Of a stretch of 34,997 nucleotides of DNA, positions 6,701 through 32,911 are shown piece by piece (within the stretch, counting starts at the first letter, position 1; every line of letters begins with the position of its first letter). A program made the translations under genes and the position numbers. This DNA comes from a virus: the IMG/VR virus record IMGVR_UViG_3300005253_000032, positions 1 to 34,997 of that record, one strand, 5' to 3'. The notes under the pieces are model-generated. The model made no database searches. It saw only the letters and a list, made by a program, of their open reading frames with translations, and was not told the DNA's origin.

Positions 6701-6868
6701 GCATTAATATATGCCTCAGATGGAGAATTTATGTTAGCAGGTGGTGCAATAGGATTAATCGTTTCATGGTTTTTAGGAATTTTAGTATTTGATTGGATAG
6801 TGGTATCTGGAATTATATTTTTCTTTGCTTTAATAGCCATAACAGGGAGGTACACAAGAAAGAAGTAA
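3701..6868 (+). CDS. Surface glycoprotein with DNRLRE-type N-terminal domain, 1055 aa
   Basis: It has a signal peptide at residues 1-20 (MKKLFISLIILVVLSNLVFA). Residues about 21-225 match the layout of DNRLRE (disaggregatase-related) beta-sandwiches: a leading strand with LLDTSVLK, RPLMNWN and SIPDGATITNVTIQI, a W-x-E-type SWDEGSEDF, NASWDYPKDGSPYW, and closing RPTLFVSY. Several Ig/fibronectin-like stretches and many N-glycosylation sequons follow. The C-terminus has three hydrophobic helices (from about residue 980) and a basic tail (YTRKK), so the bulk faces outward. It is likely the main spike or adhesin, comparable in place and size to the large VP4-type proteins of spindle viruses. The stop codon lies inside L-type end b. 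Confidence 0.85.
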   Translation: MKKLFISLIILVVLSNLVFAVDVIFQSTEAELLDTSVLKTISGASTNFNGGGANVVLFKERPDTYRPLMNWNYTFASIPDGATITNVTIQIVVSTFDGNPITPEVFPINVSWDEGSEDFTAGNASWDYPKDGSPYWAGGNYSINTSFQLLVNPQEINSTGRFNFSYNLTYWQKFFDREYDGVYYGELWRGTNEEYIAGGDSSAYFRSSNYSVATDRPTLFVSYIIPRGEVTPTIVAPSPDDGDFINNANPIINISHNGTDIKYYLYFGNVLNLNETHLVLNNVDETGPGYRTYTDTLSSATYYYKAKVRNTSNNNFSSNTTIRNFTVDLINPTLATDFINDSLIFNKNLTGQFNFSDNIGIHSYNISIDGITIFNRTNIQNTIYLFNLSYNISTLSIGKHSLGVEWADGHTSNKLGGDYEVSNGLFNDYLKYDFYDSGNIKTKLKFKSIFDEWYSEKRTDRYIQILEPAIPSDTITLVEESDIPIYIVYKEGSYNDYWIIMGNHWKDYVLENEPNIQVSIERINDYKVEITISGIKNKNKLIFSSVGDLNIVTREYSFYAINMTESFDALITEGFEFSLDLTVDFGNIEFDISGITPTGTLQWNGTNFTTTLVSFDSTASSFRKTFSPIDIETKETITHNWWFNFSTFTDGFIRTNNVSQIASSINVNVCNTTFTNYTILNLSYFDEVNDAPIAITNAYQLAIFDGTFYYNQTGSFVNNITSSFCTNLNPLEITYNWDMWGLLTLSKSGYITRVLDIDKGVPIALSNNPTTNLSLFLVGTLNSSTVTYNWQTTRFQPIDGIMRIFKCNADGTQDLVESTPIISGVATANIQLLLQTYSYDVIINGVVFKDLQSYSRCHVESTTERTFFVDVDPIDIAPLIGLAGIICTLEESAINNSVTMRWTTNPEQTGYVTGCIVADRRTIRGSVNVLNNCSIESEGFTRTLAVPVVDGNTYIVKGRLEQGNNIIICDDTVILTPGQAQGGLFGVSGLMGVIFLVVSLALIYASDGEFMLAGGAIGLIVSWFLGILVFDWIVVSGIIFFFALIAITGRYTRKK

Positions 6869-6902
6869 AATAATCCCACCATCTAAAGATGGGGGCTTTT
6901 AA
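6863..6902 (+). repeat. L-type end b
   Basis: Identical over 40 bp to 1832-1871. The block includes the last sense codon and the stop of the glycoprotein gene (AAG TAA), so the insertion boundary lies within or just before the stop. A GGAGGTTAAG ribosome site follows at 6905-6914. It pairs with the R module at 7038. Confidence 0.75.
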
Positions 6903-6917
6903 CAGGAGGTTAAGAAC

Positions 6918-7067
6918 ATGCATCCAAGACAACAAAAAGAAATTATTGAAGAAATGCTTGAAGATGATGCTCTGTTAATCAACTCAGGCATATTTGAAAT
7001 TAAGGGTAAAAAGTACACCCTTACTATTGAAGTCAAAGAGGTGAAGCCAAATTCCTCCCACGACTAA
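6918..7067 (+). CDS. Small cargo protein of element b, 49 aa
   Basis: It begins MHPRQQKEIIEEMLEDDALL, then IFEIKGKKYTLTIEVKEV, and ends PNSSHD, encoded by the R module; the stop is in the hairpin loop at 7065-7067. A helix followed by a beta hairpin is expected. It has a good Shine-Dalgarno site (AGGAGG, 8 nt before ATG). No family is recognised. It replaces tnpB between ends of the tnpB type. Confidence 0.65.
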   Translation: MHPRQQKEIIEEMLEDDALLINSGIFEIKGKKYTLTIEVKEVKPNSSHD

Positions 7068-7097
7068 AGTCATGGGTATCCGAAGCGAAGGTGTTTT
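7038..7097 (+). promoter_or_regulatory. R module b before ATG 7098
   Basis: GAGGTGA is at 7038-7044. The hairpin CCCACGAC-TAAA-GTCATGGG is at 7057-7076, with one C/A mismatch, then TATCC. Unlike other copies it also carries a local AAGGTG site 4 nt before ATG 7098, and no outer stem is visible. Confidence 0.65.
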
Positions 7098-11414: not shown

Positions 11415-11630
11415 GTGAAATTCGGAGAAAGAATACAAAACAAAAAAGACAAAAGAAAAGCATTAGAATCTGCTAACTTATGTTTAGATGGTGCTATCAA
11501 ACAATTAAAGAAAGGGAAATCTCCTGATTCATACCTTTATCAGTTCTGTTTGCAATTCAAGAAATACTGTAAATTAGAAATTAAACTTAAGAAGAACAAA
11601 ACATTAAGGAGGACGGATCTCCTACCATAA
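11415..11630 (+). CDS. Hypothetical basic protein, 71 aa (GTG start)
   Basis: MKFGERIQNKKDKRKALESA, then helices rich in Lys with LCLDGAIKQLKKG and CLQFKKYCKLEIKLKK. The GTG start is 6 nt after AGGAGG of junction 2. It ends RRTDLLP at the first arm of R module c; its stop falls in the stem rather than the loop. Function unknown. Confidence 0.6.
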   Translation: MKFGERIQNKKDKRKALESANLCLDGAIKQLKKGKSPDSYLYQFCLQFKKYCKLEIKLKKNKTLRRTDLLP

Positions 11631-11661
11631 CTAAAGTTATGGGTATCCAGCCTACGATTTT
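11608..11661 (+). promoter_or_regulatory. R module c before ATG 11662 (solo)
   Basis: GGAGGA at 11608-11613; hairpin CCATAAC-TAAA-GTTATGG at 11625-11642; GTATCC; ATTTTATG. No L-type partner is found upstream, so this is a solo end. The EVSxxSSxx coding property is not in frame here. Confidence 0.6.
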
Positions 11662-13425: not shown

Positions 13426-13509
13426 ATGAAAGCAATATCAATAAAAGAGCCCTGGGCCTCATTAATAAGAAATGGAGAAAAAGGATTAGGAGGTAATGGA
13501 AATGTGTAA
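13426..13509 (+). pseudogene. Truncated ASCH-domain gene
   Basis: The start MKAISIKEPWASLIRNGEK is the hallmark beginning of ASCH-domain proteins (K-A-I/L-S-I-x-x-P-W-A-x-L-I-x-x-G-x-K). After Lys19 the sequence switches at once into a junction (AAGGATTAGGAGGTAATG), read here as GLGGNGNV-stop. The remaining ASCH fold, about 100 residues, is absent. It is a gene remnant cut at a cassette junction. Confidence 0.75.
13477..13501 (+). repeat. Junction sequence 6 (inside ASCH remnant)
   Basis: GAAAAAGGATTAGGAGGTAA then TGGAA before ATG 13502. It closely matches the right half of junction 1 (GGATTAGGAGGTAATTGAA). Confidence 0.8.
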
Positions 13510-14341
13510 TAAAATAAGTTTTAATCAAGACAAAAAAGGTAAGATATATTGTGCAGGGGGGTTAAGTTATAGCCATAGTGAAATATCAGCTTTGCATAAA
13601 ATAGGGGATGATGAAACAAACAAATATGAATTTAATCCAACAGACGGATTAATTACAGATAAAGAGGTATTTACACCGAAGCTATCTCACACTAGAAGAG
13701 TAGAATCTTATATCAAACCTTTTAAAAACAAGAGTTATTTTAAGAAATATGGCTCGAATTCAGATAATATGGATTGGAAAGAGATAGACAAAATAATTCC
13801 TAATTCAAAGGAATTCAAGGAATATCTTAAAAGGATAGAGTCTATAAATTGGTTATCTGCAAAGAAAAAGAAACTACCACTAAATGTTCTAAATCTTATG
13901 AAGAATTACTCAAAATTGATTGATAAGAAAGAAAGAAAGATAGTTGTTTTATCTGTTAGTAACTGGTCAGCAGCATGGTCAGCAGCATGGTCAGCAGCAT
14001 GGTCAGCAGCAGAGTCAGCAGCATGGTCAGCAGCATGGTCAGCAGCATGGTCAACAGCAGAGTCAGCAGCAGAGTCAGCAGCAGAGTCAGCAGCAAGGTC
14101 AGCAGCATGGTCAACAGCAGAGTCAGCAGCAAAGTCAGCAGCAAGGTCAGCAGCATGGTCAACAGCAGAGTCAGCAGCAAAGTCAGCAGCAAGGTCAGCA
14201 GCAAGGTCAGCAGCATGGATTTTATTTCCAAAGAAACTTAAAACAAAAGAAAACATATTTGAATATTATCTTAAAGTAGCTGAAGCAGGATATCTACTTT
14301 ATAAAGTAAGTGATGATAAGATTTACTTGTTTAGGAAATAA
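13502..14341 (+). CDS. WSAA-repeat protein, 279 aa
   Basis: N-terminal region of about 155 residues (MCNKISFNQDKKGKIYCAGG, later HTRRVESYIKPFKNK and KEFKEYLKRIES). Then 21 tandem four-residue units of the form X-S-A/T-A with X = W, E, R or K, and a C-terminal 40 residues (NIFEYYLKVAEAGYLLYKV). Units 8-21 show a higher order (WSTA-ESAA-KSAA-RSAA twice). Such Ala-rich repeats should form a long helix with one charged or Trp face. ATG 13502 is preferred over 13496 because it keeps the spacing seen at junction 1. Proteins with SAA-type repeats occur in phages with unknown role. Confidence 0.75.
   Translation: MCNKISFNQDKKGKIYCAGGLSYSHSEISALHKIGDDETNKYEFNPTDGLITDKEVFTPKLSHTRRVESYIKPFKNKSYFKKYGSNSDNMDWKEIDKIIPNSKEFKEYLKRIESINWLSAKKKKLPLNVLNLMKNYSKLIDKKERKIVVLSVSNWSAAWSAAWSAAWSAAESAAWSAAWSAAWSTAESAAESAAESAARSAAWSTAESAAKSAARSAAWSTAESAAKSAARSAARSAAWILFPKKLKTKENIFEYYLKVAEAGYLLYKVSDDKIYLFRK
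13965..14218. repeat. 12-bp tandem repeat, about 21 units
   Basis: Unit GGTCAGCAGCAT with variants at two or three bases (GAG, AAG, AGG for TGG). All six frames stay open across it, which explains several false ORFs. Copy number is likely to vary by slippage or recombination. Confidence 0.95.
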
Positions 14342-14716: not shown

Positions 14717-14743
14717 AGAGTGTCCCCAATTTCCTATGGAACA

Positions 14744-15628
14744 ATGAAAAAAGAAAAAGAAGCATACAATAAAACAGTAAAAGACTATATAGATAAGCTA
14801 AGTACACCTATATTTGAGAAAGTTCTACAGGAAGATTTATCTAATAGTATGACTACTACCAAAAAGACCTTTTGTTACTTCTGGAGGCCCAACAACTTTA
14901 GACGACAAATTCCAGTAAAAGAGAAAACCAATAGTACTTCCACACGAATTAAAGGTACTATCTCTAAACTTCCTATGGAACTTAATATAAACGATCACAC
15001 CAAATTAATATCAATAAAGAACTTTAAGCCAAATATAACGATTCAATACGGCCGGACAACCCTGACAGCCATTTATTCTCAATCAATAATAGCCGGGGAA
15101 AAGGAAATATTCCGGATAGAAAGAAACTCAATAAACGAGATAAACGCCAGAATTGATGAAATTAAGCAAAATATCCAAAAAAAGGTAGATAGTGCCTTAA
15201 AAGAGTTTTCTCACCAATTTGACCTATCTATACCGTTTAAGAAGCCTGTATGGAGTAGATATGAAGATTTCCTTAAAGGAGAGGAATTTATTGATAAAAT
15301 ACCCAGGGAGTGTATAATCCATGATACTTTCTTCAAAAAGGTATATGGGAAAGGAATAGAGTTCAAAAAGGCCGGTACGGAAGAACCAACCGTTCATTTA
15401 AAGAATTACATCAAAAACAGGGCCATTGAAGATATTGCTCCGGAGATAGCAGCTTCTCTAAATCAACTATCTTTAAGATTTAATACCATTGGAGATAGAA
15501 TAATTGATATGATGAATAATAGATTAAAAGTAGATACTGAATTGCTCATCAATATAAGAACTCACAATAAGGTATTCAAGAAGTTAGATAATCTGTTAAG
15601 TCAAAAAGATTTAAGAAAATGGCTATAA
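14744..15628 (+). CDS. Hypothetical protein, 294 aa
   Basis: No family is recognised. The product starts MKKEKEAYNKTVKDYIDKLS. It has a beta-rich middle (ITIQYGRTTLTAIYSQS) and a helical C-terminal half with coiled-coil character (INEINARIDEIKQNIQKKVD; IAASLNQLSLRFNTIGDRI; TELLINIRTHNKVFKKLDNL). GTG 14720 would add 8 residues; neither start has a strong ribosome site. It is the largest unassigned gene of the array. No HUH, polymerase or helicase motif is visible, so a replication role is unsupported. Confidence 0.75.
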   Translation: MKKEKEAYNKTVKDYIDKLSTPIFEKVLQEDLSNSMTTTKKTFCYFWRPNNFRRQIPVKEKTNSTSTRIKGTISKLPMELNINDHTKLISIKNFKPNITIQYGRTTLTAIYSQSIIAGEKEIFRIERNSINEINARIDEIKQNIQKKVDSALKEFSHQFDLSIPFKKPVWSRYEDFLKGEEFIDKIPRECIIHDTFFKKVYGKGIEFKKAGTEEPTVHLKNYIKNRAIEDIAPEIAASLNQLSLRFNTIGDRIIDMMNNRLKVDTELLINIRTHNKVFKKLDNLLSQKDLRKWL

Positions 15629-15697: not shown

Positions 15698-15967
15698 ATG
15701 TTAGAGTATATAAATGTATTGATTAAAATGCCACTAAAAGAAATCCATTACAAAAGATTCATTGAAGTAGTCAAAAACGGATACGATAAAATATGGACAA
15801 TAGACGAATTATTGAAAAGAATAAATCGTTTACTGCTTTCAAATATAGTAATGACTGAACGTAGTTTAAGCAATTTAATAATCACTCAGCAGCAATTTAA
15901 AGTATTCAGGTGTAAATCTCACCAAAAGATTTATTACGAATTTAGGAGGGATTTGCCAGGAGAATAA
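15698..15967 (+). CDS. Hypothetical protein, 89 aa, possible winged-helix
   Basis: MLEYINVLIKMPLKEIHYKR, IWTIDELLKRINRLL, ERSLSNLIITQQQF, FRCKSHQKIYYEFR. The helix-helix-helix-strand pattern with a basic strand near the end would suit a winged HTH, but this is only a secondary-structure guess. AT-rich sequence precedes it, and no Shine-Dalgarno site is seen before ATG 15698 or the internal ATG 15728, so it may be leaderless. Confidence 0.55.
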   Translation: MLEYINVLIKMPLKEIHYKRFIEVVKNGYDKIWTIDELLKRINRLLLSNIVMTERSLSNLIITQQQFKVFRCKSHQKIYYEFRRDLPGE

Positions 15968-16010
15968 CACCTTCCCAAAGTAAATCTGCCTAAAGGCAGG
16001 GGTTTTCAAA
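15964..16010 (+). repeat. L-type end d (variant)
   Basis: AACACCTTCCCAAAGTAAAT, then hairpin CTGCC-TAAA-GGCAG, then GGGTTTTC. It differs at one base from 16546-16592 over its length. It is a second kind of left end that pairs with R module d. Confidence 0.75.
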
Positions 16011-16015
16011 AGAAA

Positions 16016-16177
16016 ATGTGTAAACACAAATTATATGTTATTAAGAATGTAAGTAATTCAGAAATACCATTTAAAATAGGTTGTAGGTTATGTCTTGCAA
16101 TTTGGAAGAAATGTATAGGTAATCCAAATTATCTTAGACAGAAAAAGGAGGTGAGTTCTCATTCCTCCAAGCACTAA
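16016..16177 (+). CDS. Small cargo protein of element d, 53 aa, Cys-rich
   Basis: MCKHKLYVIKNVSNSEIPFK, IGCRLCLAIWKKC. Cys2, His4, Cys26 and Cys29 could bind zinc. The end EVSSHSSKH is encoded by R module d, and the stop is in its loop. The ribosome site is not obvious. No family is recognised. Confidence 0.55.
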   Translation: MCKHKLYVIKNVSNSEIPFKIGCRLCLAIWKKCIGNPNYLRQKKEVSSHSSKH

Positions 16178-16210
16178 AGTATGTGGTATCCTGAGAACAT
16201 TATTATAAAA
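16148..16210 (+). promoter_or_regulatory. R module d before ATG 16211
   Basis: GAGGTGA at 16148-16154, outer stem GTTCTCA/TGAGAAC (16155-16161 / 16192-16198), inner hairpin with TAAA loop and three imperfect pairs. The ATG found at this place in copy e is ATA here (16205-16207); the next in-frame ATG is 16211. Confidence 0.7.
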
Positions 16211-16543: not shown

Positions 16544-16545
16544 GA

Positions 16546-16592
16546 TAACACCTTCCCAAAGTAAATCTGCCTGAAGGCAGGGGTTTTCAAAG
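16546..16592 (+). repeat. L-type end e (variant)
   Basis: Near copy of 15964-16010 with CTGAAGG in place of CTAAAGG in the loop. It begins directly after the stop of the preceding gene and ends at ATG 16594. Confidence 0.75.
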
Positions 16593-16593
16593 A

Positions 16594-16824
16594 ATGGAAA
16601 AAAACAAAATATATTCAAAAAAAGACATAAAGTTAGTTATTAGTTTGTTAGTTGTTATTTTAGGAATTGTTGGTGGGATGTCTTTAATCTTTAAAGGATT
16701 AGTATTAGAAATTAATTTTATAACTTTCCTAATTGGTTTTATTCTATTGTTGATTGGGATGTTAGCAATAGCAGTATTTATGTCAATACTAGAAGAGGTG
16801 AGTTCTCATTCCTCCACGCACTAA
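16594..16824 (+). CDS. Cargo membrane protein of element e, 76 aa
   Basis: MEKNKIYSKKDIKLVISLLV, then two transmembrane helices (LVISLLVVILGIVGG; FLIGFILLLIGMLAIAVF) and a C-terminal LEEVSSHSSTH encoded by R module e with the stop in the loop. Its ATG follows the L-type hairpin within a few bases. Function unknown. Confidence 0.65.
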   Translation: MEKNKIYSKKDIKLVISLLVVILGIVGGMSLIFKGLVLEINFITFLIGFILLLIGMLAIAVFMSILEEVSSHSSTH

Positions 16825-16851
16825 AGTACGTGGTATCCTGAGAACATTATT
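16795..16851 (+). promoter_or_regulatory. R module e before ATG 16852 (best-formed copy)
   Basis: GAGGTGA 16795-16801; perfect outer 7-bp stem GTTCTCA (16802-16808) with TGAGAAC (16839-16845); inner hairpin CCACGCAC-TAAA-GTACGTGG (16814-16833); ATTATT; ATG 16852. With the hairpin folded, the Shine-Dalgarno site would lie about 6 nt from the ATG. Confidence 0.75.
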
Positions 16852-16950
16852 ATGAGCCTAGACCAAGAATTTATGACTTTAAAGGAAGCTGAAAAAATAG
16901 CTAAAAAGCTAACTATTGAAGAAATCTTTATTCAAGATGAGGAAGAATGA
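16852..16950 (+). CDS. Short acidic peptide, 32 aa
   Basis: MSLDQEFMTLKEAEKIAKKL, TIEEIFIQDEEE: one amphipathic helix with an acidic end. It overlaps the next gene by 4 bp (ATGA). The only Shine-Dalgarno site is that of the R module. The LKEAEKIAKKLTIEE stretch looks like a helix of a small HTH, but it is too short to assign. Confidence 0.5.
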   Translation: MSLDQEFMTLKEAEKIAKKLTIEEIFIQDEEE

Positions 16951-17878: not shown

Positions 17879-18229
17879 ATGGGAATAATCAAAGCAATAA
17901 TAAATGATCTTAAGACAGATGTACAGTTCTTAAAGGAAATCTATAAGGGAGAATACAAGTTTCCATACACTTTAAAGGAAGTCTTAGACATAAGGCCCTT
18001 AATTAAAGATCCACAAACCTGGATATTCCTTATGATAATAATTGCAACATTGTTTACAGGAATGTTTGTTTCTGCAAAATATTACCAGGGATTAGCCAAT
18101 GAAGAGATAATAAAAGCCCAGGACTTTGTTGATTTACATTGTTCAAATATAGATGGATATGCTTCAAATATTCCACAAACAGATTTTACAGAGATAATGG
18201 AGAAAATAAACATAAATTCTAATACTTAA
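17879..18229 (+). CDS. Single-pass membrane protein, 116 aa
   Basis: The N-terminal inside domain of about 50 residues (MGIIKAIINDLKTDVQFLKE, YTLKEVLDIRPLIKDP) leads to a helix (WIFLMIIIATLFTGMFVSA). An outside domain with one Cys and a helical end follows. Proteins starting with LKEVLDIRPLIKDP-like segments before one helix look like assembly or secretion adaptors, but no family is claimed. ATG 17879 follows GGGGGT; ATG 17867 is the alternative. It is the last gene of the rightward array. Confidence 0.65.
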   Translation: MGIIKAIINDLKTDVQFLKEIYKGEYKFPYTLKEVLDIRPLIKDPQTWIFLMIIIATLFTGMFVSAKYYQGLANEEIIKAQDFVDLHCSNIDGYASNIPQTDFTEIMEKININSNT

Positions 18230-18231
18230 CG

Positions 18232-18337
18232 TGGAGGATTCAAACACGGCTAAAATCTGAAAAAGATTTTATCCTATACCAAAAGGCAAAAGGAGAACTT
18301 CGTAACTCCTTTTACCTCTTCAGGATGTTTTCAGCCC
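18232..18337 (+). ncRNA. 3' structured RNA element, copy 1
   Basis: Conserved blocks are AACACGGCTAA (18243-18253), ATCCTATACCAAAAGG (18271-18286) and CCTCTTCAGGATGTTTTC (18315-18332). Between them are helix P1 (AAAATCT/AGATTTT) and helix P2 (AAAAGGAG/CTCCTTTT) with loop ACTTCGTA. The same blocks occur on the minus strand at 20614-20706 with different stem bases that still pair. ATCCT and AGGAT can also pair. It lies in sense at the end of the rightward operon. Confidence 0.75.
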
Positions 18338-18368
18338 AAAAGAAATCTACATTCTTAATAACAATAAA

Positions 18369-18398
18369 CTTTAAATACTTGCTATATTTATAAATATA
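18369..18398 (+). promoter_or_regulatory. Promoter with 16-bp palindrome
   Basis: TATA-like TTTAAATA (18370-18377) is followed by the perfect palindrome TATATTTATAAATATA (18383-18398), close to the expected start site, then GGAGG at 18412-18416 before ATG 18426. The palindrome is a candidate operator for the RHH-like protein encoded two genes on. Confidence 0.55.
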
Positions 18399-18425
18399 CA
18401 TATAAAACTATGGAGGTTTTTAAAA

Positions 18426-18683
18426 ATGAACTTAGAAGAATTATTTAAAGTTAAAAAAGGAGAGTATATATTAGTTGGTTCTAAAAATAAAATATATACT
18501 AAGACAACACATAGACTTGATAAATGTACAACAGTAATCCATACCAGAGAAAAGATTAAAGGGTTTATTGATACTTTAAAAATAAATGATTTTATCATTA
18601 CCAATGGAAGGGTAATTATCAGAATTGATACAAGAGCAAAACAAATATTAGTAAACAAATTAATAGATAAGGAGGCAAAATAA
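18426..18683 (+). CDS. Hypothetical protein, 85 aa
   Basis: MNLEELFKVKKGEYILVGSK, HRLDKCTTVIHTREKIKGFI, DFIITNGRVIIRID. It is a beta-rich small protein with basic surface, maybe an SH3-like or OB-like barrel. It is the first gene behind a promoter with an operator-like palindrome, so an early or regulatory role is plausible. No family is recognised. Confidence 0.65.
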   Translation: MNLEELFKVKKGEYILVGSKNKIYTKTTHRLDKCTTVIHTREKIKGFIDTLKINDFIITNGRVIIRIDTRAKQILVNKLIDKEAK

Positions 18684-18684
18684 A

Positions 18685-18810
18685 ATGGTACAAATGACTT
18701 TATTTTTAGGAGAAAAGCAGGAAGCTAAAGTAAATAAGTTGAAAGAGCTATGGCATAAGAACAAACACGATACTGTGCTACAGATTATTGATGAGCATAA
18801 GGGGGAGTGA
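18685..18810 (+). CDS. Putative ribbon-helix-helix regulator, 41 aa
   Basis: MVQMTLFLGEKQEAKVNKLK, ELWHKNKHDTVLQIIDEHKG: one strand (QMTLFLG), helix A, a tight turn (KNKHD) and helix B. This is the size and order of CopG/MetJ-type ribbon-helix-helix domains. The family binds palindromic operators as dimers; palindromes lie upstream. It has a GGAGG site. The fold call is from pattern only. Confidence 0.5.
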   Translation: MVQMTLFLGEKQEAKVNKLKELWHKNKHDTVLQIIDEHKGE

Positions 18811-18812
18811 AG

Positions 18813-19916
18813 ATGAAACTAAAATTAAATGAACTGAATGCTAATCCATTCAAAAAAGAAATTAATAAAGGAAAACTAGATGAAGATACAATAAAGAAAA
18901 TACAGAGCAATATGAAAGAACTTGGATTAATGGGGGCTTTGCCTATTTTCAAAAAAGATAATAAATATTATCTTGTTGCAGGACACCACAGGGTTGAAGC
19001 ATTAAAAAGAGAATTTGGAAAGAACTATGAAATTAATGTAACACTCCATAACTATTCTGAAGAAAATATTTTAAGGGGAATGGTTGTAGAAAACCTAACA
19101 CAAAGAAATAATAAGTTTAGAGAAGAAGGAGACAATCTTTTAGTGATTAGAAAGTATTTAAAACAACAATCAGCCCATTCACCGAGTGAACAGGCTAAAC
19201 GCAAAGACGTAAAGGGAATATATGATAAAGGTTCAATCTCTGAAATTTATTCTTGGCTTAACAAAAACGGGGAAGTAATGGCAAGAGGAAAAATATGCCA
19301 AGTTCTAAATATTCTTGATAATCTTGATGTGGAACTTTTAGAAAGAGTAAAGAAAGGTAAAGCAGTATCATTGGATGAACAAGAAGAAGGAATCTTAATG
19401 ACTAAAGACGCTTTAGCTATTTCTAAAATAGAAGATAAAGAAGAGCAGAAACAAATAGCAGACTTAATTCTTAAATCGAAATTAAGCAAAACAGATGATA
19501 GGAGAGATACAATAATTGCATATAATAAAGCCCCAGAAGAAGTTAAAGAAGAAATTAAAAAAGGTAATAGAGATATAGCTGATATTGAAGAAGCAATAAT
19601 AGAACACCAAATAAAAGAATCTAATAAGGGAAAGCCAATAACTGAATTTATACCTAACTTCAAAAGTAGAGTTGATGACTTCTCTTATAATGTAACAAGA
19701 CTTGAACAACAGGTAGCATTATTTCGTAAGGTATTCTATAGTAAAGGCTTTACCCAAAGATACAATACTCTAGGTAAGAAAGAAAAACAATTCTTGGGTG
19801 GAACAGTACAAGACATACATAAAAGAATAAAGAAATGTTATAGTGAGGTAGAGTTCTTTATATCCCAGTTGGAGAAAGCTAAGGGTGAATCTAATTCTCT
19901 GGAGGTAAAAAAATGA
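18813..19916 (+). CDS. ParB/Srx-fold protein, 367 aa
   Basis: The N-terminal ParB-like nuclease domain shows LVAGHHRVEALKRE (residues 54-67; the phosphate-binding G-H-x-R) and MVVENLTQRN (90-99; the classic E-N-x-x-R). Then come a helical region with candidate HTH (ISEIYSWLNKNGEVMARGKI) and a long helical C-terminus (FSYNVTRLEQQVALFRKVF). ParB proteins bind CTP and DNA for partition. Virus members may act as regulators or nucleases. No ParA partner is seen. ATG 18813 sits 6 nt after GGGGGA and is preferred over GTG 18807. The 3' end overlaps the next ATG by 4 bp. Confidence 0.85.
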   Translation: MKLKLNELNANPFKKEINKGKLDEDTIKKIQSNMKELGLMGALPIFKKDNKYYLVAGHHRVEALKREFGKNYEINVTLHNYSEENILRGMVVENLTQRNNKFREEGDNLLVIRKYLKQQSAHSPSEQAKRKDVKGIYDKGSISEIYSWLNKNGEVMARGKICQVLNILDNLDVELLERVKKGKAVSLDEQEEGILMTKDALAISKIEDKEEQKQIADLILKSKLSKTDDRRDTIIAYNKAPEEVKEEIKKGNRDIADIEEAIIEHQIKESNKGKPITEFIPNFKSRVDDFSYNVTRLEQQVALFRKVFYSKGFTQRYNTLGKKEKQFLGGTVQDIHKRIKKCYSEVEFFISQLEKAKGESNSLEVKK

Positions 19917-20416
19917 AATTTACTAAAGAACAAAATAAATCTATAAAGATACAATTGTGGAAATATTTTCAACCAATACATAAACATTTAGGCCTTGAAA
20001 ATTCTAGTGACATAGAAGAAATTACAGAACACATTATCAAGAAATGTAGATTATCAATAAAAGAATATTATAAAAAATTAATATTTAAAGGGGCTATTTC
20101 AAGTAAAATTTTTAATATACTTATGAATGAAAAATCACCATTCTATATCAAAGGATTAGATTGTGAAGTTGTTTATAAAAAAGGTAATGGTTTACAAAAT
20201 AGAATGGGACATTATTACATTGTTAAAGATAAGGAAGATGCAAGAAGAATAAAAGAGAAGAGAGATATAGGCATAAGGGATAGACAAAAAGGTAGTTATA
20301 TGCACGATTTACATAATAAAGAATTCTTAAAACAATTAGGGCATGACAGCAATATTGATAGAAAACAATTAAGGTATGGGAATAAGAAAAATCACTCTCC
20401 GTTAAACTCGGAGTAA
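19913..20416 (+). CDS. Hypothetical protein, 167 aa, coupled to ParB-like gene
   Basis: A helical N-terminal half (LWKYFQPIHKHLGL, EEITEHIIKKCRLSIKEYYK) and a basic second half (GLQNRMGHYYIVKDKEDARR, GIRDRQKGSYMHDLHNKEFL). The end NHSPLNSE is not membrane-like. It may be a DNA-binding partner of the ParB-like protein, judging from the ATGA overlap. No known motif is claimed. Confidence 0.7.
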   Translation: MKFTKEQNKSIKIQLWKYFQPIHKHLGLENSSDIEEITEHIIKKCRLSIKEYYKKLIFKGAISSKIFNILMNEKSPFYIKGLDCEVVYKKGNGLQNRMGHYYIVKDKEDARRIKEKRDIGIRDRQKGSYMHDLHNKEFLKQLGHDSNIDRKQLRYGNKKNHSPLNSE

Positions 20417-20440
20417 GGGGAAAATATTGGAAGTGAAAGG

Positions 20441-20614
20441 ATGGGGATGTATCTAGCAGTTAGGCAGCCATTAATAAACGGCAACGTTCCAGACATAGCA
20501 GTTCTTTCTTCTGAGAAATTAATTGTAAAAGAAGTGATGAATTCTGAAAGTGATTCTCAGTTTGAATCTAAAGATTATCCAGGAGCTAAAAAGATAAAGG
20601 TTAAAGTGGGGTAG
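20441..20614 (+). CDS. Hypothetical protein, 57 aa
   Basis: MGMYLAVRQPLINGNVPDIA, VLSSEKLIVKEVM, then an acidic run and KKIKVKVG end. It is a beta-rich small protein. AAAGGATGGGG around the start gives a modest ribosome site. It is the last rightward gene before the minus-strand operon and meets the minus-strand structured RNA at its stop. Confidence 0.5.
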   Translation: MGMYLAVRQPLINGNVPDIAVLSSEKLIVKEVMNSESDSQFESKDYPGAKKIKVKVG

Positions 20615-20706
20615 AAAACATCCTGAAGAGGTTTTTTCCATACGAAGTGTGGGAAAATCCTTTTGGTATAGGATAATTTCACAGAGAAATTAGCCGTGTT
20701 TTCACC
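20614..20706 (-). ncRNA. 3' structured RNA element, copy 2
   Basis: Read on the minus strand: AACACGGCTAA, helix AATTTC/GAAATT, ATCCTATACCAAAAGG, helix TTTTCC/GGAAAA with loop ACTTCGTA, CCTCTTCAGGATGTTTTC. The flanks GGGTGAAAACA and TGTTTTCTACCC form an outer stem. Stem bases differ from copy 1 but pairing is kept. It begins 14 nt after the last gene of the leftward operon. Confidence 0.75.
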
Positions 20707-20719
20707 CATCAAAAAAGAA

Positions 20720-20938
20720 TCAGTATTTAACATATCGCCATTGATCTCTGTATTTCCAGGTAAGAAAAGCAATACCAATAGCAGATAATACAAGTAAAAC
20801 AGCTAAAGTTATCTTAATCCATGTAGGGAGGCCAAAAACCATATTAAACATTACTCTTACTGTTTTAAAAATAATATCCCTTATATCTTCAATAATCTTG
20901 TTTATATCAAAATCAAAATTCAAATCATTTAGGCCCAT
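20720..20938 (-). CDS. Amphipathic and membrane helix protein, 72 aa
   Basis: MGLNDLNFDFDINKIIEDIR, DIIFKTVRVMFNMVFG (amphipathic), then LPTWIKITLAVLLVLSAIGI (transmembrane) and a basic-aromatic tail (WKYRDQWRYVKY). It may bend or anchor to membranes from one face. It overlaps the previous gene by 14 bp and is the last gene of the leftward operon. Confidence 0.7.
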   Translation of the reverse strand: MGLNDLNFDFDINKIIEDIRDIIFKTVRVMFNMVFGLPTWIKITLAVLLVLSAIGIAFLTWKYRDQWRYVKY

Positions 20939-22580: not shown

Positions 22581-22637
22581 TTTGAATCACCTTTGTTTGA
22601 GTTACCTTCACTCATATAGTATGGTAATATAGCCAAG

Positions 22638-22645
22638 TATATAAA
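22638..22645 (-). promoter_or_regulatory. Minus-strand promoter
   Basis: TTTATATA in the context TCGAAAGGTTTATATACTTGG (read on the minus strand), with a purine-rich BRE. It predicts a start near 22613, about 33 nt before ATG 22580. Confidence 0.6.
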
Positions 22646-22679
22646 CCTTTCGATTGGACTACCGTTATAATGTGGGTTG

Positions 22680-23027
22680 TCATTCTGATTCATTTAAAGT
22701 GGAATTGGTAGAATTAGTTTCATTAATAGTAATGTTTATATCAGTCATGGCCCACTTATTTATTATTGATTCTAACCTATTGATTTGATTGATTAATGAT
22801 ATATCACAGGAATTATTACTGCTGCTTATGAATATAGTTTCATTCGAGCAATTACCAGGAACTTCCTTTATTGTTGTATTATATGTAATTTCATATATAG
22901 TATTGTTTATAGTTTTGTTCTGGCACTTTAGCTCTATTGGTTTAGAACAGCCTGTTAGTAATATACTAATGAGTATGATTGCTATCCAGCCTATCTTTCT
23001 TTCTAGGTATTGGTTAAAGGTTTTCAT
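22680..23027 (-). CDS. Glycosylated lipoprotein-like protein, 115 aa
   Basis: A basic N-terminus and hydrophobic segment (IGWIAIILISILLTGCSKP) contain a lipobox (LLTGC at about residues 23-27). The rest is an outside domain with about ten sequons (NKT, NTT, NCS, NET, NNS, NIT, NST) and two or three more Cys, ending in a Thr/Ser/Asn-rich tail. It may be an envelope or host-surface lipoprotein, for example for superinfection exclusion; this is inference. It overlaps the integrase by 4 bp. Confidence 0.75.
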   Translation of the reverse strand: MKTFNQYLERKIGWIAIILISILLTGCSKPIELKCQNKTINNTIYEITYNTTIKEVPGNCSNETIFISSSNNSCDISLINQINRLESIINKWAMTDINITINETNSTNSTLNESE

Positions 23028-23737
23028 TTTCGATTCTTATAAAACTGTTTAAATATATCTGATGAACTTAGTTCCATATAGTATTTAGCAGGTCTAGCAT
23101 CAGTCCAACCCATGAACTTTATTAGAGCTTGTTCATTGAAGTCATACTTAGTTACTAGATGAGTAGCCCGGATATGCCTTATGAAATGGACATTGAAGTC
23201 TGTGCTATCTACTATTATCTGTGTAGCCCTTTTAGACTTAAAGTTAAATAAGATAGAATCATCATTAAGATCCTTTATATAATCCTTTATGAACTCTACT
23301 ATGGGCATCTCTAGTTCTATAGGAATAGGCTGCCTCTTAGTGGTTCTTTCCTTATGTTTCCTGTTCTCAGTTCTGATATACATACATTGCTTGTCATACT
23401 CAGTTCCAAACTTAATCTGCCCCTTATTAACACCAGGGTAGTTATGAGGTATCCTTTCCTTATCTACCTCTCTAAAGATATTGCCTTCTTTGACATACTT
23501 CTTCTTCCATAGTTCAGTCACCTTAACTATCTCACTAACCCTGCAGGCAGTAAGATAGTACATAGCAAATAAAGCCTTAGCTCTCTTAGTCTGTTTAACT
23601 ATATCAATCTTACCTGCATTGATCCTATCTATTATATTCTTTAGTTCATCCAGGCTAGGTACTTCTTCATAGGCATACTTCTTCTGTAGTTCCTTCTGCC
23701 TACTCCATGCTGCCCTTCTATTTTGGTTAGGTATCAT
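23024..23737 (-). CDS. Tyrosine recombinase (integrase), 237 aa
   Basis: Catalytic residues can be placed: Arg66 (YYLTACRVSEI), a Lys in the hairpin RTENRKHKERTTK, His184 and Arg187 in HFIRHIRATHL, Trp211 in FMGWTDA, and Tyr219 or Tyr220 in AKYYMEL. The N-terminal DNA-clamp domain is very short (about 50 residues), as in archaeal virus and XerA-like enzymes. It would insert the circle into a host site or resolve dimers. It has its own promoter (23789-23799). No tRNA-like attP is recognised nearby. Confidence 0.9.
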   Translation of the reverse strand: MIPNQNRRAAWSRQKELQKKYAYEEVPSLDELKNIIDRINAGKIDIVKQTKRAKALFAMYYLTACRVSEIVKVTELWKKKYVKEGNIFREVDKERIPHNYPGVNKGQIKFGTEYDKQCMYIRTENRKHKERTTKRQPIPIELEMPIVEFIKDYIKDLNDDSILFNFKSKRATQIIVDSTDFNVHFIRHIRATHLVTKYDFNEQALIKFMGWTDARPAKYYMELSSSDIFKQFYKNRK

Positions 23738-23872: not shown

Positions 23873-24802
23873 TTACTCTTTTTTGGTTTCCCTATAATCT
23901 ATAATCTCATATTTTCGGACTTTGCCATCATTTCCCCTTATACCGGTTACTTGTATGCCCTTATTCTTTATTCTCTGCATAGTTTGATATACATTACTCA
24001 CGGTTACACCTAATTGGATAGCGGCCTCATCAATATCAACATCCCTCTTTATTACATTCAATGTTTTTTCTTCCGGTGGAGTTAATGGTTTTAATCCAGA
24101 GGCTTTTTGTTTATCTAGTTTTTCTTTTAATTCAATACCACTCAATAGTTCATCATAAACATCGGTAGTAAATTCTTTCTTCATCTTCTCATAATCCTTA
24201 ATTATATTCAAGGGAGGTTTAGGTAATCTTAATTGATTGCAGTATGTAGTAGAACCATCTAGTTTCTTTACCAATAATCTTTTACGATAGAACCTATCAA
24301 CATCACCATTATATTCTAAGGTGAATGGTTTAATGATGGTATAACCTTTAGACCAACCCATGGCTTTCCAATGGCAGTTCATCAACTTTCTTACCTTCTT
24401 GCTTATGCTAGTAAGGAATGGGCAGGTAGTTCCAAATATATAATTACGGAATCTTGCAGTACTAAAGAAAACACCCAGTGCTTTATTCGTTACATTCTGC
24501 CAATCAGCAGAATCTAAATCAACCTCGCTTTCATCATAGAGTATAGGCTTTCCTTTGACTATCCTATTGCCTCTGAAGTATTCTATTAACTTCTTGGCTT
24601 TGAATACGCATTGTTCACTAACATCAAAATCAGGATCAACTTCACAAAATTGTGATAAAAGACTATAAGACTTTCCTTCACCAGGCATAGAAGTAACAAT
24701 CAAATTTATACAGTTATTCTTTTGATTAGTTCTTTTAAAGAAATATGAAGTCCAGGGGTTCTGACCTTCTACTTGTTTGACTGTAGGCCATTTGTATCCC
24801 AT
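23873..24802 (-). CDS. P-loop ATPase (Zot/HerA-type) with C-terminal HTH, 309 aa
   Basis: Walker A SMPGEGKS (residues 38-45); Walker B PILYDE (86-91); a sensor-like STARFRNYIFGTTCPF (114-129) as in Zot-type and virus packaging ATPases. The C-terminal 65 residues form an HTH (LTPPEEKTLNVIKRDVDIDE, AAIQLGVTVSNVYQTMQRIK), similar in pattern to GerE/sigma-type HTHs. It likely powers DNA packaging or virion extrusion at the membrane. It begins in overlap with the 171-aa gene. The DNA-binding tail could recognise viral DNA. Confidence 0.85.
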   Translation of the reverse strand: MGYKWPTVKQVEGQNPWTSYFFKRTNQKNNCINLIVTSMPGEGKSYSLLSQFCEVDPDFDVSEQCVFKAKKLIEYFRGNRIVKGKPILYDESEVDLDSADWQNVTNKALGVFFSTARFRNYIFGTTCPFLTSISKKVRKLMNCHWKAMGWSKGYTIIKPFTLEYNGDVDRFYRKRLLVKKLDGSTTYCNQLRLPKPPLNIIKDYEKMKKEFTTDVYDELLSGIELKEKLDKQKASGLKPLTPPEEKTLNVIKRDVDIDEAAIQLGVTVSNVYQTMQRIKNKGIQVTGIRGNDGKVRKYEIIDYRETKKE

Positions 24803-25782: not shown

Positions 25783-25822
25783 TATTTAAAGGTTTCTAAA
25801 AACAAAACGAAAGGTTTATATA
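25783..25822. promoter_or_regulatory. Divergent promoters of the ATPase operon and RHH gene
   Basis: Minus strand: TTTAAATA (25783-25790). Plus strand: TTTATATA (25815-25822) in CGAAAGGTTTATATACTAT. Both leaders contain GTAAATAGG before the start gene. A regulator bound between them, probably the RHH protein at 25869, could control both directions. Confidence 0.6.
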
Positions 25823-25868
25823 CTATATAGTTATTCTATTCTTTACTAAGTAAATAGGAGGTAACAAA

Positions 25869-29500: not shown

Positions 29501-29696
29501 TGATGAAGAGAAGAAAAAGAAACTAAAAAGATTAATTGGAAGAGTTATTCCAAGACAAAGATTCATTTTCATAGCAGATTTATATTCAAGAATATATGGA
29601 ATCTTAGCTAATCCAAAAGAAAAAAGAGCATTCCTAAAAATAGGAAGAATATTTACAGGAGCAGAAGCAAGAAAAATAATAAGGGGAAGAAGATAG
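26535..29696 (+). CDS. Giant basic virion protein with three internal repeats, 1053 aa
   Basis: Arg, Lys and Gln rich throughout. The N-terminus is compact (MGLDTDRQRLEFIRRLPRFT). A hydrophobic stretch at about residues 310-340 (DIAGIPFIIGGRAAIGIAAL) may be a membrane helix. Residues about 502-760 hold three repeats of roughly 90 residues, each with EKQRRLLRQQLALERKI, GLQVKAPR, EGVIRNGKR, YPFLDKTTGKVRFFTSRKLW. The C-terminus reads QRFIFIADLYSRIYGI and GRIFTGAEARKII. Size, charge and repeats suggest a structural protein contacting packaged DNA or the inner envelope. L-type end c follows its stop. Confidence 0.75.
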   Translation: MGLDTDRQRLEFIRRLPRFTSDGRSITFIQPDKKPKVTGVQIVDPLTGRLGQSIFTADFPRRAFTSIPRTTKIQAAFQRLESPSERAFARRQKEIMQQEAIKLRRQELRRTPLATPGELRLTTRLRQAQAERQQIAAVRRANKRIIKTLQRQGKRVRVEASGKITATDIITGRKTIVQGRGIGLGLRITKKGTRGVVSPRIVAKVPVSARVDVLGVTALTRARERRDTSKDFKEKIQRVIAKAEAREKGKPLTRAGRVTERIAGFVEKRERDLTSFQERVFKKLGISPNVKERERLKREGTFVQKGARWGIEFGKAVLRLPLDIAGIPFIIGGRAAIGIAALFDKEKRKIVTGAFKEVPKAVITMHDPREPEGVLMIILTVTSIRGIAVSRANRIRFNNQVKNAKVIGAEVKVSKPVGGKVTVIKKGVLRVGGKRVTFFEKRVVSRNKVPSFLKKGARVGNFKVTKRTLNQITFELKKAKVKVTPTKKVKVGKRLKQIIPKRKRQLEIQRRFIDRQLALERKIKRGLQVKAPRQGEGVIRNGKRTFPFLDKATGKVTFFTSRKLWFKAVKRQVKAEPKIPFKKRIKIATRKQRIQLEKQRRLLRQQLALERKIKKGLQVKAPRTGEGVIRNGKRVYPFLDKTTGKVRFFTSRKLWLRAVKQQVKAEPKISLRKQFKLSTRQKRIQLEKQRRLLRKQQAIEKKLARGLQVKAPRINEGVIRFGKRAYPFLDKTTGKVRFFTSRKQWLRAVKQQIKIDIAEVGRAKINLNTLFKPRVVRIKGGVRIIDNRGKVLFEAVKKPRTRQVNFKSGRQVLKLKTLEKTKSKTISKQANQIPSSQRLVAVTRQTQAVKKITRTRQLLILKMKSSTKSVSVSKNQSLAQALSLFKGLNSLLLGKTKLASILIGQSSLSKLSKAVFNKTKSKQIQLSKQIQLSKQAKAQVLSLVLAQESLSLQAKISAQTSLLRRILKTKQKIKLVPKLKFKFVPPFPDDEEKKKKLKRLIGRVIPRQRFIFIADLYSRIYGILANPKEKRAFLKIGRIFTGAEARKIIRGRR
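28035..28805 (+). repeat. Three approx. 270-bp coding repeats
   Basis: In-gene repeats begin near 28035, 28302 and 28572. The second and third are most alike (for example GACAAAACAACAGGAAAAGT in both). They arose by duplication inside the 1053-aa gene. Confidence 0.8.
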
Positions 29697-29700
29697 TAAC

Positions 29701-29733
29701 ATAATCCCACCACTAAAGTAGTGGGCTTTTATC
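29701..29733. repeat. L-type end c = right end of the tnpB element
   Basis: ATAATCCCACCACTAAAGTA, then GTGGGCTTTTATCC. In tnpB orientation it is the right end; the TAG stop of tnpB lies in the hairpin loop. The overlapping tnpB 3' end is where TnpB-family guide (omega) RNA is encoded, with the guide read from the flank to the left of 29701. Confidence 0.7.
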
Positions 29734-30819
29734 CCTGAACTCAGGCTCAGTTGTCAATTGACCTTTGCCTTCACCATTCGAGACGTTTGGCTTTGTTACG
29801 TGAAGCCTACGCAAGTTACAAGAAGCGTTGAAATCAGATTGTGAGGAAAAACCACAATGAGAACAAAAAAAACTATCAAAGTATCGAGAACCAATTTTAA
29901 GACAGTTAGAGCAGGTTTGCGAAGTCATATAAGGACTGACAAAGATAACTCTTTTGCCTTCTCTTTCAGCTTTATATTTGATAAAACCCTGCAACTGATA
30001 GAAACTCCAACTATTAAGCCACCTATTCAATCTCTTTCCACTGTACTTATTCCTACTTTTTCGTATTCCTTTAAGGTTCTCCAATACGATTGTATTAGCA
30101 GAAGCAACAATCTCCTTGCTGATTATGTGGTTAACTCCACGCATGTAGCGTTTCTGCCTTCCAGAGATAGCTTTAAGCTTTCTCTTAGCCGACTTTGTGC
30201 CTTTACGTTGGAGTTTCTTCCTCAAGTATTGGTACTGCATAATCTTGGTCTTATAACCACTAAAAACCTCACCATCAGAAGTGACAGCAAGATTATTTAC
30301 TCCGACATCAACACCAACTATTTTCTCGTTGCGACAAGAAGTAGTGGTATTGACATCTCTGGAGAATGTGATATGAAAAAACAATCTTCCTTTTCTATCT
30401 TTAATAATTTCAAGGGTTTGGTATCTCCAATCAAGATACTTCCAATAATATTCAGGAATATTTATAGCAATATTCTTTCTTTGTCTCGGAGTAAAGGTAG
30501 CAATCCTAACCTTATCAAAGGAAAAAGTAAAGAGATTTCTATTGAAACTAATAGGGCAGGATTTCATAATAGGCTTCTTTTTAAGTTTAACAGCTTTAAG
30601 ATTTTCAGAAGCCTTAGCAATAGCCTCACAAGAAAAATCAGCAGGAAGCCATTGTCTCAAATCCTTATAGACAAGATGATGAAGCTTAAATCTATTGCTA
30701 ACTTTAGCTTCAAATCCTTTATCAATAGAATACTGAACAGCCTGAAGAAAAGTGTTAGACATATCCAACAATTCTTTATTATGTTTAATCTTAACCTTTA
30801 TAGTCGCAACGAGCTTCAT
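29713..30819 (-). CDS. tnpB: TnpB, RNA-guided nuclease of IS200/IS605-type element, 368 aa
   Basis: All catalytic parts are present: RuvC-I Asp171 (IVGVDVGVNNLAVTSDG), RuvC-II Glu247 (IVLENLKGI), zinc finger Cys303/306/319/322 (TCSNC, FFCSHCGF) and RuvC-III Asp329 (SQSDFNASCNL). Full family length. TnpB cuts DNA guided by RNA from its own 3' end, helping the element persist. No tnpA transposase is in the genome, so movement would need one in trans. The promoter GTTTATATAG (30841-30850) implies a very short leader. A 345-aa open frame on the other strand is a shadow. Confidence 0.95.
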   Translation of the reverse strand: MKLVATIKVKIKHNKELLDMSNTFLQAVQYSIDKGFEAKVSNRFKLHHLVYKDLRQWLPADFSCEAIAKASENLKAVKLKKKPIMKSCPISFNRNLFTFSFDKVRIATFTPRQRKNIAINIPEYYWKYLDWRYQTLEIIKDRKGRLFFHITFSRDVNTTTSCRNEKIVGVDVGVNNLAVTSDGEVFSGYKTKIMQYQYLRKKLQRKGTKSAKRKLKAISGRQKRYMRGVNHIISKEIVASANTIVLENLKGIRKSRNKYSGKRLNRWLNSWSFYQLQGFIKYKAEREGKRVIFVSPYMTSQTCSNCLKIGSRYFDSFFCSHCGFSSQSDFNASCNLRRLHVTKPNVSNGEGKGQLTTEPEFRDKSPLL

Positions 30820-30840
30820 ATAGGATGGAAATATATTAGA

Positions 30841-30850
30841 CTATATAAAC
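30841..30850 (-). promoter_or_regulatory. tnpB promoter
   Basis: Minus-strand GTTTATATAG preceded by TCGTAAA, about 25-30 nt before ATG 30819, so the message is likely near leaderless. Confidence 0.5.
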
Positions 30851-30864
30851 TTTACGAAAACCAA

Positions 30865-30921
30865 GAGGTGAGTCTCAATTCACCACACGACTAAAGTCGT
30901 GTGTACCCTTGAGACATAATT
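30865..30921 (+). promoter_or_regulatory. R module f = left end of the tnpB element
   Basis: GAGGTGA 30865-30871; outer stem GTCTCAA/TTGAGAC (30872-30878 / 30909-30915); perfect inner stem CACACGAC-TAAA-GTCGTGTG (30884-30903); ATAATT; ATG 30922. This copy ties the R modules to a recognisable transposon end. Confidence 0.75.
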
Positions 30922-31083
30922 ATGGGAGATAAATATTCACATTTACACAAGAAGAAAAATCCTAAGCGTACTAAAGAAGAGATTAGTGAGGATAGGATAA
31001 AAAGAAAAAAAGATAAGGAGGTAAAACAAAATGGGAATGCAAAAAAGAGTAAAAGGTCATTTAAGAAAAGTGCCGGGAAGTAG
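30922..31083 (+). CDS. Possible basic protein, 53 aa
   Basis: MGDKYSHLHKKKNPKRTKEE, ISEDRIKRKKDKEVKQNGNA, ending KRSFKKSAGK. It starts right behind R module f with no other ribosome site. Its 3' third overlaps, in another frame, the better supported gene at 31031, so its end may be altered by the element insertion. Confidence 0.4.
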   Translation: MGDKYSHLHKKKNPKRTKEEISEDRIKRKKDKEVKQNGNAKKSKRSFKKSAGK

Positions 31084-32182: not shown

Positions 32183-32911
32183 ATGGGATTAATTGGAATA
32201 ATCGTAATAACCGCAATAGTAGCAATCGTTGGAGGGGGGGGAGGATATTTATTTTGGGTTTTGACAAGGCCTCTAAAAAACACATGGAAAGCAAAAGTAT
32301 ACCAACTTGGTAAAGGAATAAGAGAACCATTAAAAGATAAAAAAGGAGATATCATTTCAAATTTAAAAATACAGGATTTAATTCCTTACTCAAGGGATAT
32401 ACTGGAAAAAGTTGATAAGGAACATGGAACAACATTTTATCAATTGCAAAAATTAAAGAAAACAACACCTGCCCCAGAGGATGGAACGGTAGATTATTGG
32501 GGCAAGAAATTTAAGGAAGTTTCGGTATTATATCATAAAGACGGTTGTACCTTGCTTAAGAAAGGCTACGATAAATCCACAGGAGAAATCATATTTGATC
32601 CATTACCCCATAGTAGAGTGAACATAATCAAAGGGGAAATGGGATTAAGGAAGAATAGGCTTCATGAAAAGAAAGACATATTAGAGGCAATCAGTCCATG
32701 GATTATTGCAGGGATTGTCATTATGGGATTGATAGCAATTTCATATCTGCAAGGAGAAGCTTATATAAAAGTTTCAGAAAACCTCAAAAATGTAATGCAG
32801 GAAAGCAATAAGAAGTATGACGAATTCATATCACAGCAAGCAAAGATAGAGGAACTTAAGCAAGGCATAGAACCAGAACAACATGATTTAGGGCCTCAGG
32901 ATGAACAATGA
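32183..32911 (+). CDS. Bitopic membrane protein, 242 aa
   Basis: The N-terminal helix contains a glycine run (IVITAIVAIVGGGGGYLFWV). A soluble region of about 150 residues has a charged beta-rich look (WGKKFKEVSVLYHKDGCTLL; TGEIIFDPLPHSRV). A second helix follows (SPWIIAGIVIMGLIAISYL), then a coiled coil (ESNKKYDEFISQQAKIEELK) and acidic end. It is coupled by ATGA overlap to the fibre gene, so it may anchor or assemble the fibre. No family is recognised. Confidence 0.75.
   Translation: MGLIGIIVITAIVAIVGGGGGYLFWVLTRPLKNTWKAKVYQLGKGIREPLKDKKGDIISNLKIQDLIPYSRDILEKVDKEHGTTFYQLQKLKKTTPAPEDGTVDYWGKKFKEVSVLYHKDGCTLLKKGYDKSTGEIIFDPLPHSRVNIIKGEMGLRKNRLHEKKDILEAISPWIIAGIVIMGLIAISYLQGEAYIKVSENLKNVMQESNKKYDEFISQQAKIEELKQGIEPEQHDLGPQDEQ

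Follow-up and report, generated by a model that had tools for sequence, protein, structure and literature searches.

A dispersed structured repeat from the genomes of Woesearchaeota-type archaea, probably REP/MITE-like, with two copies in a virus

In bacteria, the ERIC, YPAL and NEMIS elements are intergenic, MITE-like palindromic repeats of approximately 100-170 bp whose transcripts are predicted to form long stem-loops (PMC2229807), and the targets of YPAL lie in or adjoin regions of dyad symmetry (PMC2229807). The REPs are 20-50 nt long, carry a GTAG-type tag and are linked to an HUH transposase (PMC8266576). Here, we describe a previously unlisted family of foldable repeats, approximately 130 letters long, which occupy intergenic positions in tiny archaea of the Woesearchaeota type at up to approximately 58 copies per genome and occur twice in the window, that is, the whole 34,997-base record of an archaeal virus. 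We consider it probable, although well short of certain, that the two viral segments are copies of a new dispersed REP/MITE-like structured repeat that is selected as a folded single strand and that the virus took in and then probably duplicated. A description of the repeat family was not found in the open literature, and the covariance models of Rfam 15 gave no match above the gathering score at the element in the window or at 19 host loci, in agreement with the first-pass annotation, which had placed it in no known class.

The record carries an identical terminal direct repeat of 121 bp (1-121 = 34877-34997); because of this repeat, it probably represents a whole circular genome (34,876 bp), whose genes would thus form two long divergent operons, a plus-strand operon running from 26061 through the circular junction to 18229 and a minus-strand operon running from 25746 to 20720. 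Two copies of a structured RNA sharing sequence blocks and a loop had been annotated at 18232-18337 and 20614-20706; both were located at these positions in the window, with all core sequence common to the two. They flank a ParB-like mini-operon in inverted orientation. Copy 1 lies 8-9 nt past the stop codon of the gene that closes the long plus-strand operon (end 18229), and copy 2, when read on the minus strand, lies approximately 15 nt past the stop codon of the last minus-strand gene (20720-20938); the annotated position of each copy, in sense behind the last gene of an operon, is therefore right on the strand that was used. When read on the plus strand, copy 2 lies in sense behind the ParB mini-operon, and the stop codon of ORF 20435-20614 forms the start of the element. 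Two covariance models were used: R1, built from the two viral copies alone after three loop bases of copy 1 had been trimmed for stem alignment, and R2, rebuilt on the opposite strand from 40 sequences (fetched copies with flanks). The features are as follows.

18238-18334, folding strand probably minus (plus in the first-pass annotation): core of element copy 1, 97 nt; 99.6 bits with R1 on the plus strand and 83.1 bits with R2 on the minus strand, where the R2 match spans 18218-18354
18248-18274, minus strand: hairpin P2 of copy 1, GG-A-TAAAATCT / AGATTTTA-G-CC; the helix covaries in 107 homologues and is 97.7% paired
18284-18317, minus strand: hairpin P4/P3 of copy 1, with the conserved loop TTACGAAGTT on the minus strand (AACTTCGTAA on the plus strand); helices 96-99% paired over the homologues
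18426-20614, plus strand: ParB-like mini-operon with ORFs 18426-18683, 18807-19916 (ParB-like), 19913-20416 and 20435-20614; ParB-like by PHROGs
20612-20705, folding strand probably plus: core of element copy 2, 94 nt; 81.7 bits with R2 on the plus strand
20609-20621, plus strand: 5' strand of P1 of copy 2, partner 20696-20707, from the fold
20624-20666, plus strand: hairpin P4/P3 of copy 2, loop TACGAAGTG, from the fold and covariation in homologues
20671-20695, plus strand: hairpin P2 of copy 2, from the fold and covariation in homologues

The block ATCCTATACCAAAAGG occurs exactly twice in the window, and the pattern TATACCAAA-N20-42-CTCTTC also occurs twice, against 0.01 expected from shuffles. 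Between the two viral copies, 31 of the 94 aligned columns differ, all of them in the stems and loops of P2 and P3 or at the ends. With the loops aligned, 27 pairs can be written, ten of which are changed on both sides; nine of these ten still pair and one becomes C.A, which bears out the earlier observation that the helices differ in sequence yet pair. The outer stem CAACAACA of the cellular copies is missing from both viral copies in the comparison with homologues.

Elsewhere in this genome, ORF 32908-34995 runs on into 162-1820 and is tail-fibre-like with a Peptidase_S74 domain, and a tandem repeat with a 12-bp unit at 13496-14341 encodes a repeat protein of the WSAA/ESAA type. The virus also contains an IS605-type TnpB element with end hairpins together with at least four short LE/RE-like pairs lacking tnpB (MITE/PATE-like). 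These IS605-type sites (1832-2135, 6863-7096, approximately 11620-11648, 15964-16206, 16545-16853 and 29694-30923) apparently all lie in the same orientation between viral genes, and their number is unusually high for one virus. Near-identical archaeal-type promoter motifs (CGAAAGGTTTATATACT) are present on opposite strands at 25805-25824 and 22636-22655.

The search set comprised 371 genomes from the phylum of Ca. Woesearchaeota archaeon SURF_65, which are drafts, and the E-values are rough. The first-pass annotation had proposed a covariance model of the two copies as a check; R1 matched 12 of the 371 genomes (best E 2e-15), and in these homologues the helices pair through compensatory changes, so that the annotation withstood the refuting check that it had set itself. 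With R2, 29 of the 371 genomes had matches at E<=0.01, and the richest genomes had 58, 48, 33, 10 and 8 matches each, the 58 falling in a 1.3-Mb genome and the 48 in a 2.1-Mb genome, where 28 reached at least 57 bits. The weak R2 matches of 30-45 bits and approximately 100 nt, as in G204 and G156, may represent other hairpin families. R2 found the element in none of 237 genomes of the phylum holding Methanophagales and in none of 230 genomes of the phylum holding Paceibacterota. Exact-pattern scans of IMG/VR with the core blocks returned chance matches and no relative, the 52 IMG/VR contigs retrieved with the last core pattern contained no homologue according to R2, and among the 116 matches from scanning GTDB contigs with a pattern, all due to chance, there was no homologue.

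The unit of approximately 130 nt consists of an outer stem, P0, with the conserved sequence (C)AACAACA/TGTTGTT(G), a stem P1, which is divided into two parts by a symmetric 2x2 loop (a tandem GA/GA on the folding strand), and a three-way junction from which the hairpins P2 and P4/P3 project, the latter with the conserved loop ACnnAGU. The two helices annotated at first correspond to P2 and P3, to which the homologues add P1, P4 and, in cells, the outer stem. In the 107 copies, standard pairs occupied 95.1% of cells compared with 68.1% after shuffling, double-sided changes were present in 38 of 41 pairs, and the covariation score was 0.659, as against 0.178 for shuffled alignments and at most 0.149 for slid partners. 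This 107-copy alignment was fitted to the model and is thus biased towards it; an unguided MAFFT alignment of 42 copies yielded the same helices in RNAalifold, namely P0, the two-part P1 and the junction with P2 and P4/P3. Typical variants of P1 are AAAC:GUUU, AUAC:GUAU, ACAC:GUGU, ACUC:GAGU and GAAC:GUUC, and the outer pair of P4 occurs in all four Watson-Crick types. Any palindrome can be folded, and the element might on that ground be taken for chance palindromes or an alignment artefact; this explanation, to which we attach practically no weight, is already refuted by the homologues found with a two-sequence model and by a covariation 3.7-fold over that of shuffles, with flat slid controls. 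We regard the structure as settled and strong selection on it as shown, and in this respect the first-pass annotation stands. A different P4 (AUCCU:AGGAU) had been derived from the two viral copies and was part of R1; it was rejected and is absent from R2, the homologues showing GG:CC closing P2 and another P4. Strings resembling a theophylline aptamer, a hammerhead and a tRNA T-arm were noticed by eye, but the structure of the element does not match them.

The folding strand is probably not the one originally taken as such: the opposite strand folds better in all 42 copies tested, by a mean of 11.6 kcal/mol. The minimum free energy of copy 1 is -33.1 on the minus strand versus -23.9 on the plus strand, and that of copy 2 is -38.1 kcal/mol (z -5.6) on the plus strand versus -25.0 (z -2.2) on the minus strand. 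On the opposite strand, the core helices contain G.U and A.C pairs at 126:23 in the 107 copies, which are related to one another, so that the p-value for this excess is approximate, and the outer stem contains them at 32:28, the outer five P0 pairs showing no strand bias (18 vs 21). The mismatches UC/UC in P1, A.C in P4 and C.U in P2 on the strand first used become tandem G.A, G.U and G.A on the opposite strand, and the single broken viral pair becomes U.G. From these predicted folds and pair counts, we infer that the functional molecule is probably the folded strand opposite to that annotated, either as RNA or as single-stranded DNA.

The cellular copies are intergenic, scattered over the contigs in every orientation, and number 28-58 in rich genomes. 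With neighbor genes crudely called as ORFs that are 100 aa or longer and no more than 400 nt away, the 107 copies (including the two viral ones) had the upstream gene in sense in 42 cases and in antisense in 46, and the downstream gene in sense in 59 and in antisense in 34 (p 0.012); 28 were tandem sense, 20 tandem antisense, 24 divergent and 9 convergent. The downstream excess probably arises because the copies sit just before the next promoter: a TATA peak, with BRE-like sequence by eye, lies 40-69 nt beyond the 3' end of the folding strand and suits the next gene. Recurring or shared neighbor genes were not found among the cellular copies. These data bear directly on the original proposal of a cis-acting 3' element of mRNA that terminates transcripts or protects them from exonucleases. 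On the strand first used, each viral copy directly follows the final gene of a long operon; on the plus strand, copy 2 lies in sense behind the ParB mini-operon as well, and bacterial ERIC repeats are cotranscribed and have an orientation-dependent effect on mRNA stability (PMC2229807). Nevertheless, the even upstream orientation, the 24 copies between divergent genes, where a terminator is needless, the lack of clear T-run enrichment on either strand and the poorer folding of the strand concerned make this proposal unlikely in our judgment. Because cellular copies are intergenic, occur in all orientations and adjoin unrelated genes, the element in cells is not of the sense 3'-UTR type; for the same reasons, and since the family is not virus-specific, the roles of 3' stability or termination element, packaging signal and riboswitch suggested for it were not supported.

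The elaborate conserved junction and loops, the strong strand bias that is typical of RNA, the maintenance of structure in each old copy and an intergenic placement independent of neighbors would also suit a multi-copy family of stand-alone or trans-acting noncoding RNAs, a new RNA class expressed from intergenic sites, two members of which the virus would encode. However, no clear TATA enrichment was seen at promoter distance upstream of the folding strand, the peak past the 3' end suiting the next gene, and 30-58 near-equivalent copies in 1.3-2.1 Mb, accompanied by half copies and inverted pairs, have the appearance of repeats; we thus hold a noncoding RNA family to be rather improbable. One or two subfamilies are present per genome, for example AAAAGG..CTCTTCAG in G281 and TAAAGG..CTCTACAC in G130, and adjacent inverted pairs occur at the loci L203, L207, L237 and L293. 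In G130, half copies of the element and arrays of another hairpin flank the element copies. At one orthologous site in two species, where the flanking proteins are approximately 76% identical, the element is kept and its P2 is altered.

Several neighboring structures were observed alongside the family. The arrays in G130 (L232, L235 and L261-L266) consist of a second, unrelated hairpin family in tandem (CCTAGCCTCTCCG...CGGAGAGGTGGC) with a period of roughly 90-100 bp; they lie upstream of the element with respect to its folding strand, and degenerate half copies of the element lie on the other side. At L217 and L199 (G281) and at L215 and L204 (G090), the flank of the element contains a further large structured palindrome, for example GGCAGGAGACTGACTTTG..CCTACGGGGCACCCC..GTCTCCGCC, with a similar two-hairpin layout, and G281 and G090 thus seem to hold several structured-repeat families.

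For the REP/MITE-like repeat that we favor, we infer mobility from the number of copies and the existence of subfamilies, and the structure kept in old copies fits mobile sites and sites that each have a function of their own equally well. At L200 (G341), a 15-bp direct repeat, AATTGTTATTTCTTC, lies 69 nt ahead of the core and 70 nt behind it, around a copy with extra outer helices, and is possibly a target-site duplication; L200 is the only locus with such a symmetric direct repeat, most copies having none. A Y1 transposase is present in 7 of 12 carriers compared with 111 of 359 other genomes, a weak enrichment (p=0.06). The search detected none in the draft genomes of G130 (the richest carrier), G236, G243, G273 and G315, and the candidacy of this transposase as a necessary partner was not supported. 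A transposon-like cassette spanning 18238-20705 in the virus was likewise rejected, since no target-site duplication was visible by eye. The inverted pair around a discrete mini-operon, together with the tyrosine recombinase that the virus encodes at 23024-23737, raises the question of whether the element is a site for a tyrosine recombinase, integron attC-like or other, that works as folded single-stranded DNA, with the ParB segment as a mobile cassette. Strand-specific folding, conservation of structure above sequence, similarity within genomes and the report of attC sites from Nanoarchaeota (PMC9668308) are in keeping with such a site. The copies are, however, dispersed in mixed orientation rather than in same-orientation arrays, no recurrent recombinase adjoins them, and consistent GTTRRRY/RYYYAAC ends are not apparent in the alignment as read by eye; we consider this explanation very improbable.

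For the dispersed repeat, the most economical mechanism would be that a protein acting in trans recognizes the element in its folded, single-stranded form. Such recognition would account for the single-strand optimum (G.U and G.A rather than A.C and C.U), for helices that drift only with compensation and for the irrelevance of location and orientation. Because the family is multi-copy between archaeal genes, the virus probably carries a host-type repeat and not a virus-specific RNA signal. We propose that the virus may have picked up a core of the host type that lacked the outer stem; after duplication, the two copies would have been retained where its three transcription units meet. By analogy with the effect of ERIC repeats on bacterial mRNAs (PMC2229807), the hairpins at the ends of the viral operons may have a secondary role in the termination or protection of transcripts.

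By R1 score, the viral copies are most like those of G281. They share features (AACATCCTGAAG), which suggests duplication inside the virus followed by compensated drift; owing to this compensation, they are probably still under selection there. The viral protein encoded at 14720-15628 has homologues in G329 (44%), G281 and G341, and contig C40 of G341 holds both a homologue of this protein and a relative of the viral ATPase (23873-24802); this contig is possibly a provirus. The ATPase itself, encoded on the minus strand, is putative and 23% identical (E 1e-7) to a DnaA-like protein from Haloferax phage LSV-48N. Because of the homologues of 14720-15628 and the ATPase relative in G341, protein similarity would place the host near the G329, G281 and G341 lineages. 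The element was absent from those portions of the contigs of G329 and G341 that were retrieved, and none of the other IMG/VR contigs tested carries it.

Protein searches of IMG/VR and GTDB contigs found no relatives of the virus; this otherwise orphan virus is now linked to a host lineage, the G281-like Woesearchaeota, and is seen to keep host-type repeats at operon boundaries. DPANN genomes are very small and thought to be streamlined, and 28 to 58 copies per genome of a 130-nt structured repeat under compensatory selection imply an unlisted mobile or recognition system or an RNA function in these archaea, with the partner protein open to discovery. With the covariance model, genomes can be searched for the family directly. 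A more far-reaching possibility, which we raise tentatively, is that the family constitutes a new functional RNA class in DPANN archaea, each genome containing dozens of copies that are maintained individually, or the RNA or single-stranded DNA substrate of a hairpin-based dispersal system, which the virus has taken over at the ends of its transcription units.

Compared with ERIC, YPAL and NEMIS, the element is similar in size (about 100-200 bp), intergenic, dispersed and hairpin-forming by prediction and covariation, but it is archaeal, has a three-way-junction core, strongly conserved loops and a one-strand optimum, was not seen to have a general target-site duplication or TA ends, and has no known sequence relation to them. 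It resembles the REP/BIME repeats with TnpA_REP (RAYT) in its high copy number, strand-specific imperfect palindromes, inverted pairs, mosaics with other hairpins and lineage-specific subfamilies; unlike these repeats, it is approximately 130 nt long with a three-way junction, no constant tag was noticed in its alignment, and its richest carrier yielded no Y1 transposase. Like integron attC sites, which are also described in Archaea (PMC9668308), it would be a folded single-strand site in which structure is conserved above sequence and copies are more alike within than between genomes, but it lies outside cassette arrays, has a different core and has no associated integrase that we could find. 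The palindromic repeats of Methanocaldococcus jannaschii (Suyama 2005), for which our source is their citation in PMC2229807, are also archaeal and palindromic. The IS605-derived LE/RE hairpin pairs of the same virus are likewise small hairpin-bearing intergenic elements, but they differ in their loop, CTAAAGT, and in the rest of their sequence, and are unrelated to the element studied here. The anatomy is that of the structured repeats of the REP/ERIC/YPAL type, with an elaborate three-way-junction core; the unusual points here are that this junction is conserved, that compensation is nearly perfect even among divergent copies and that the lineage is archaeal.
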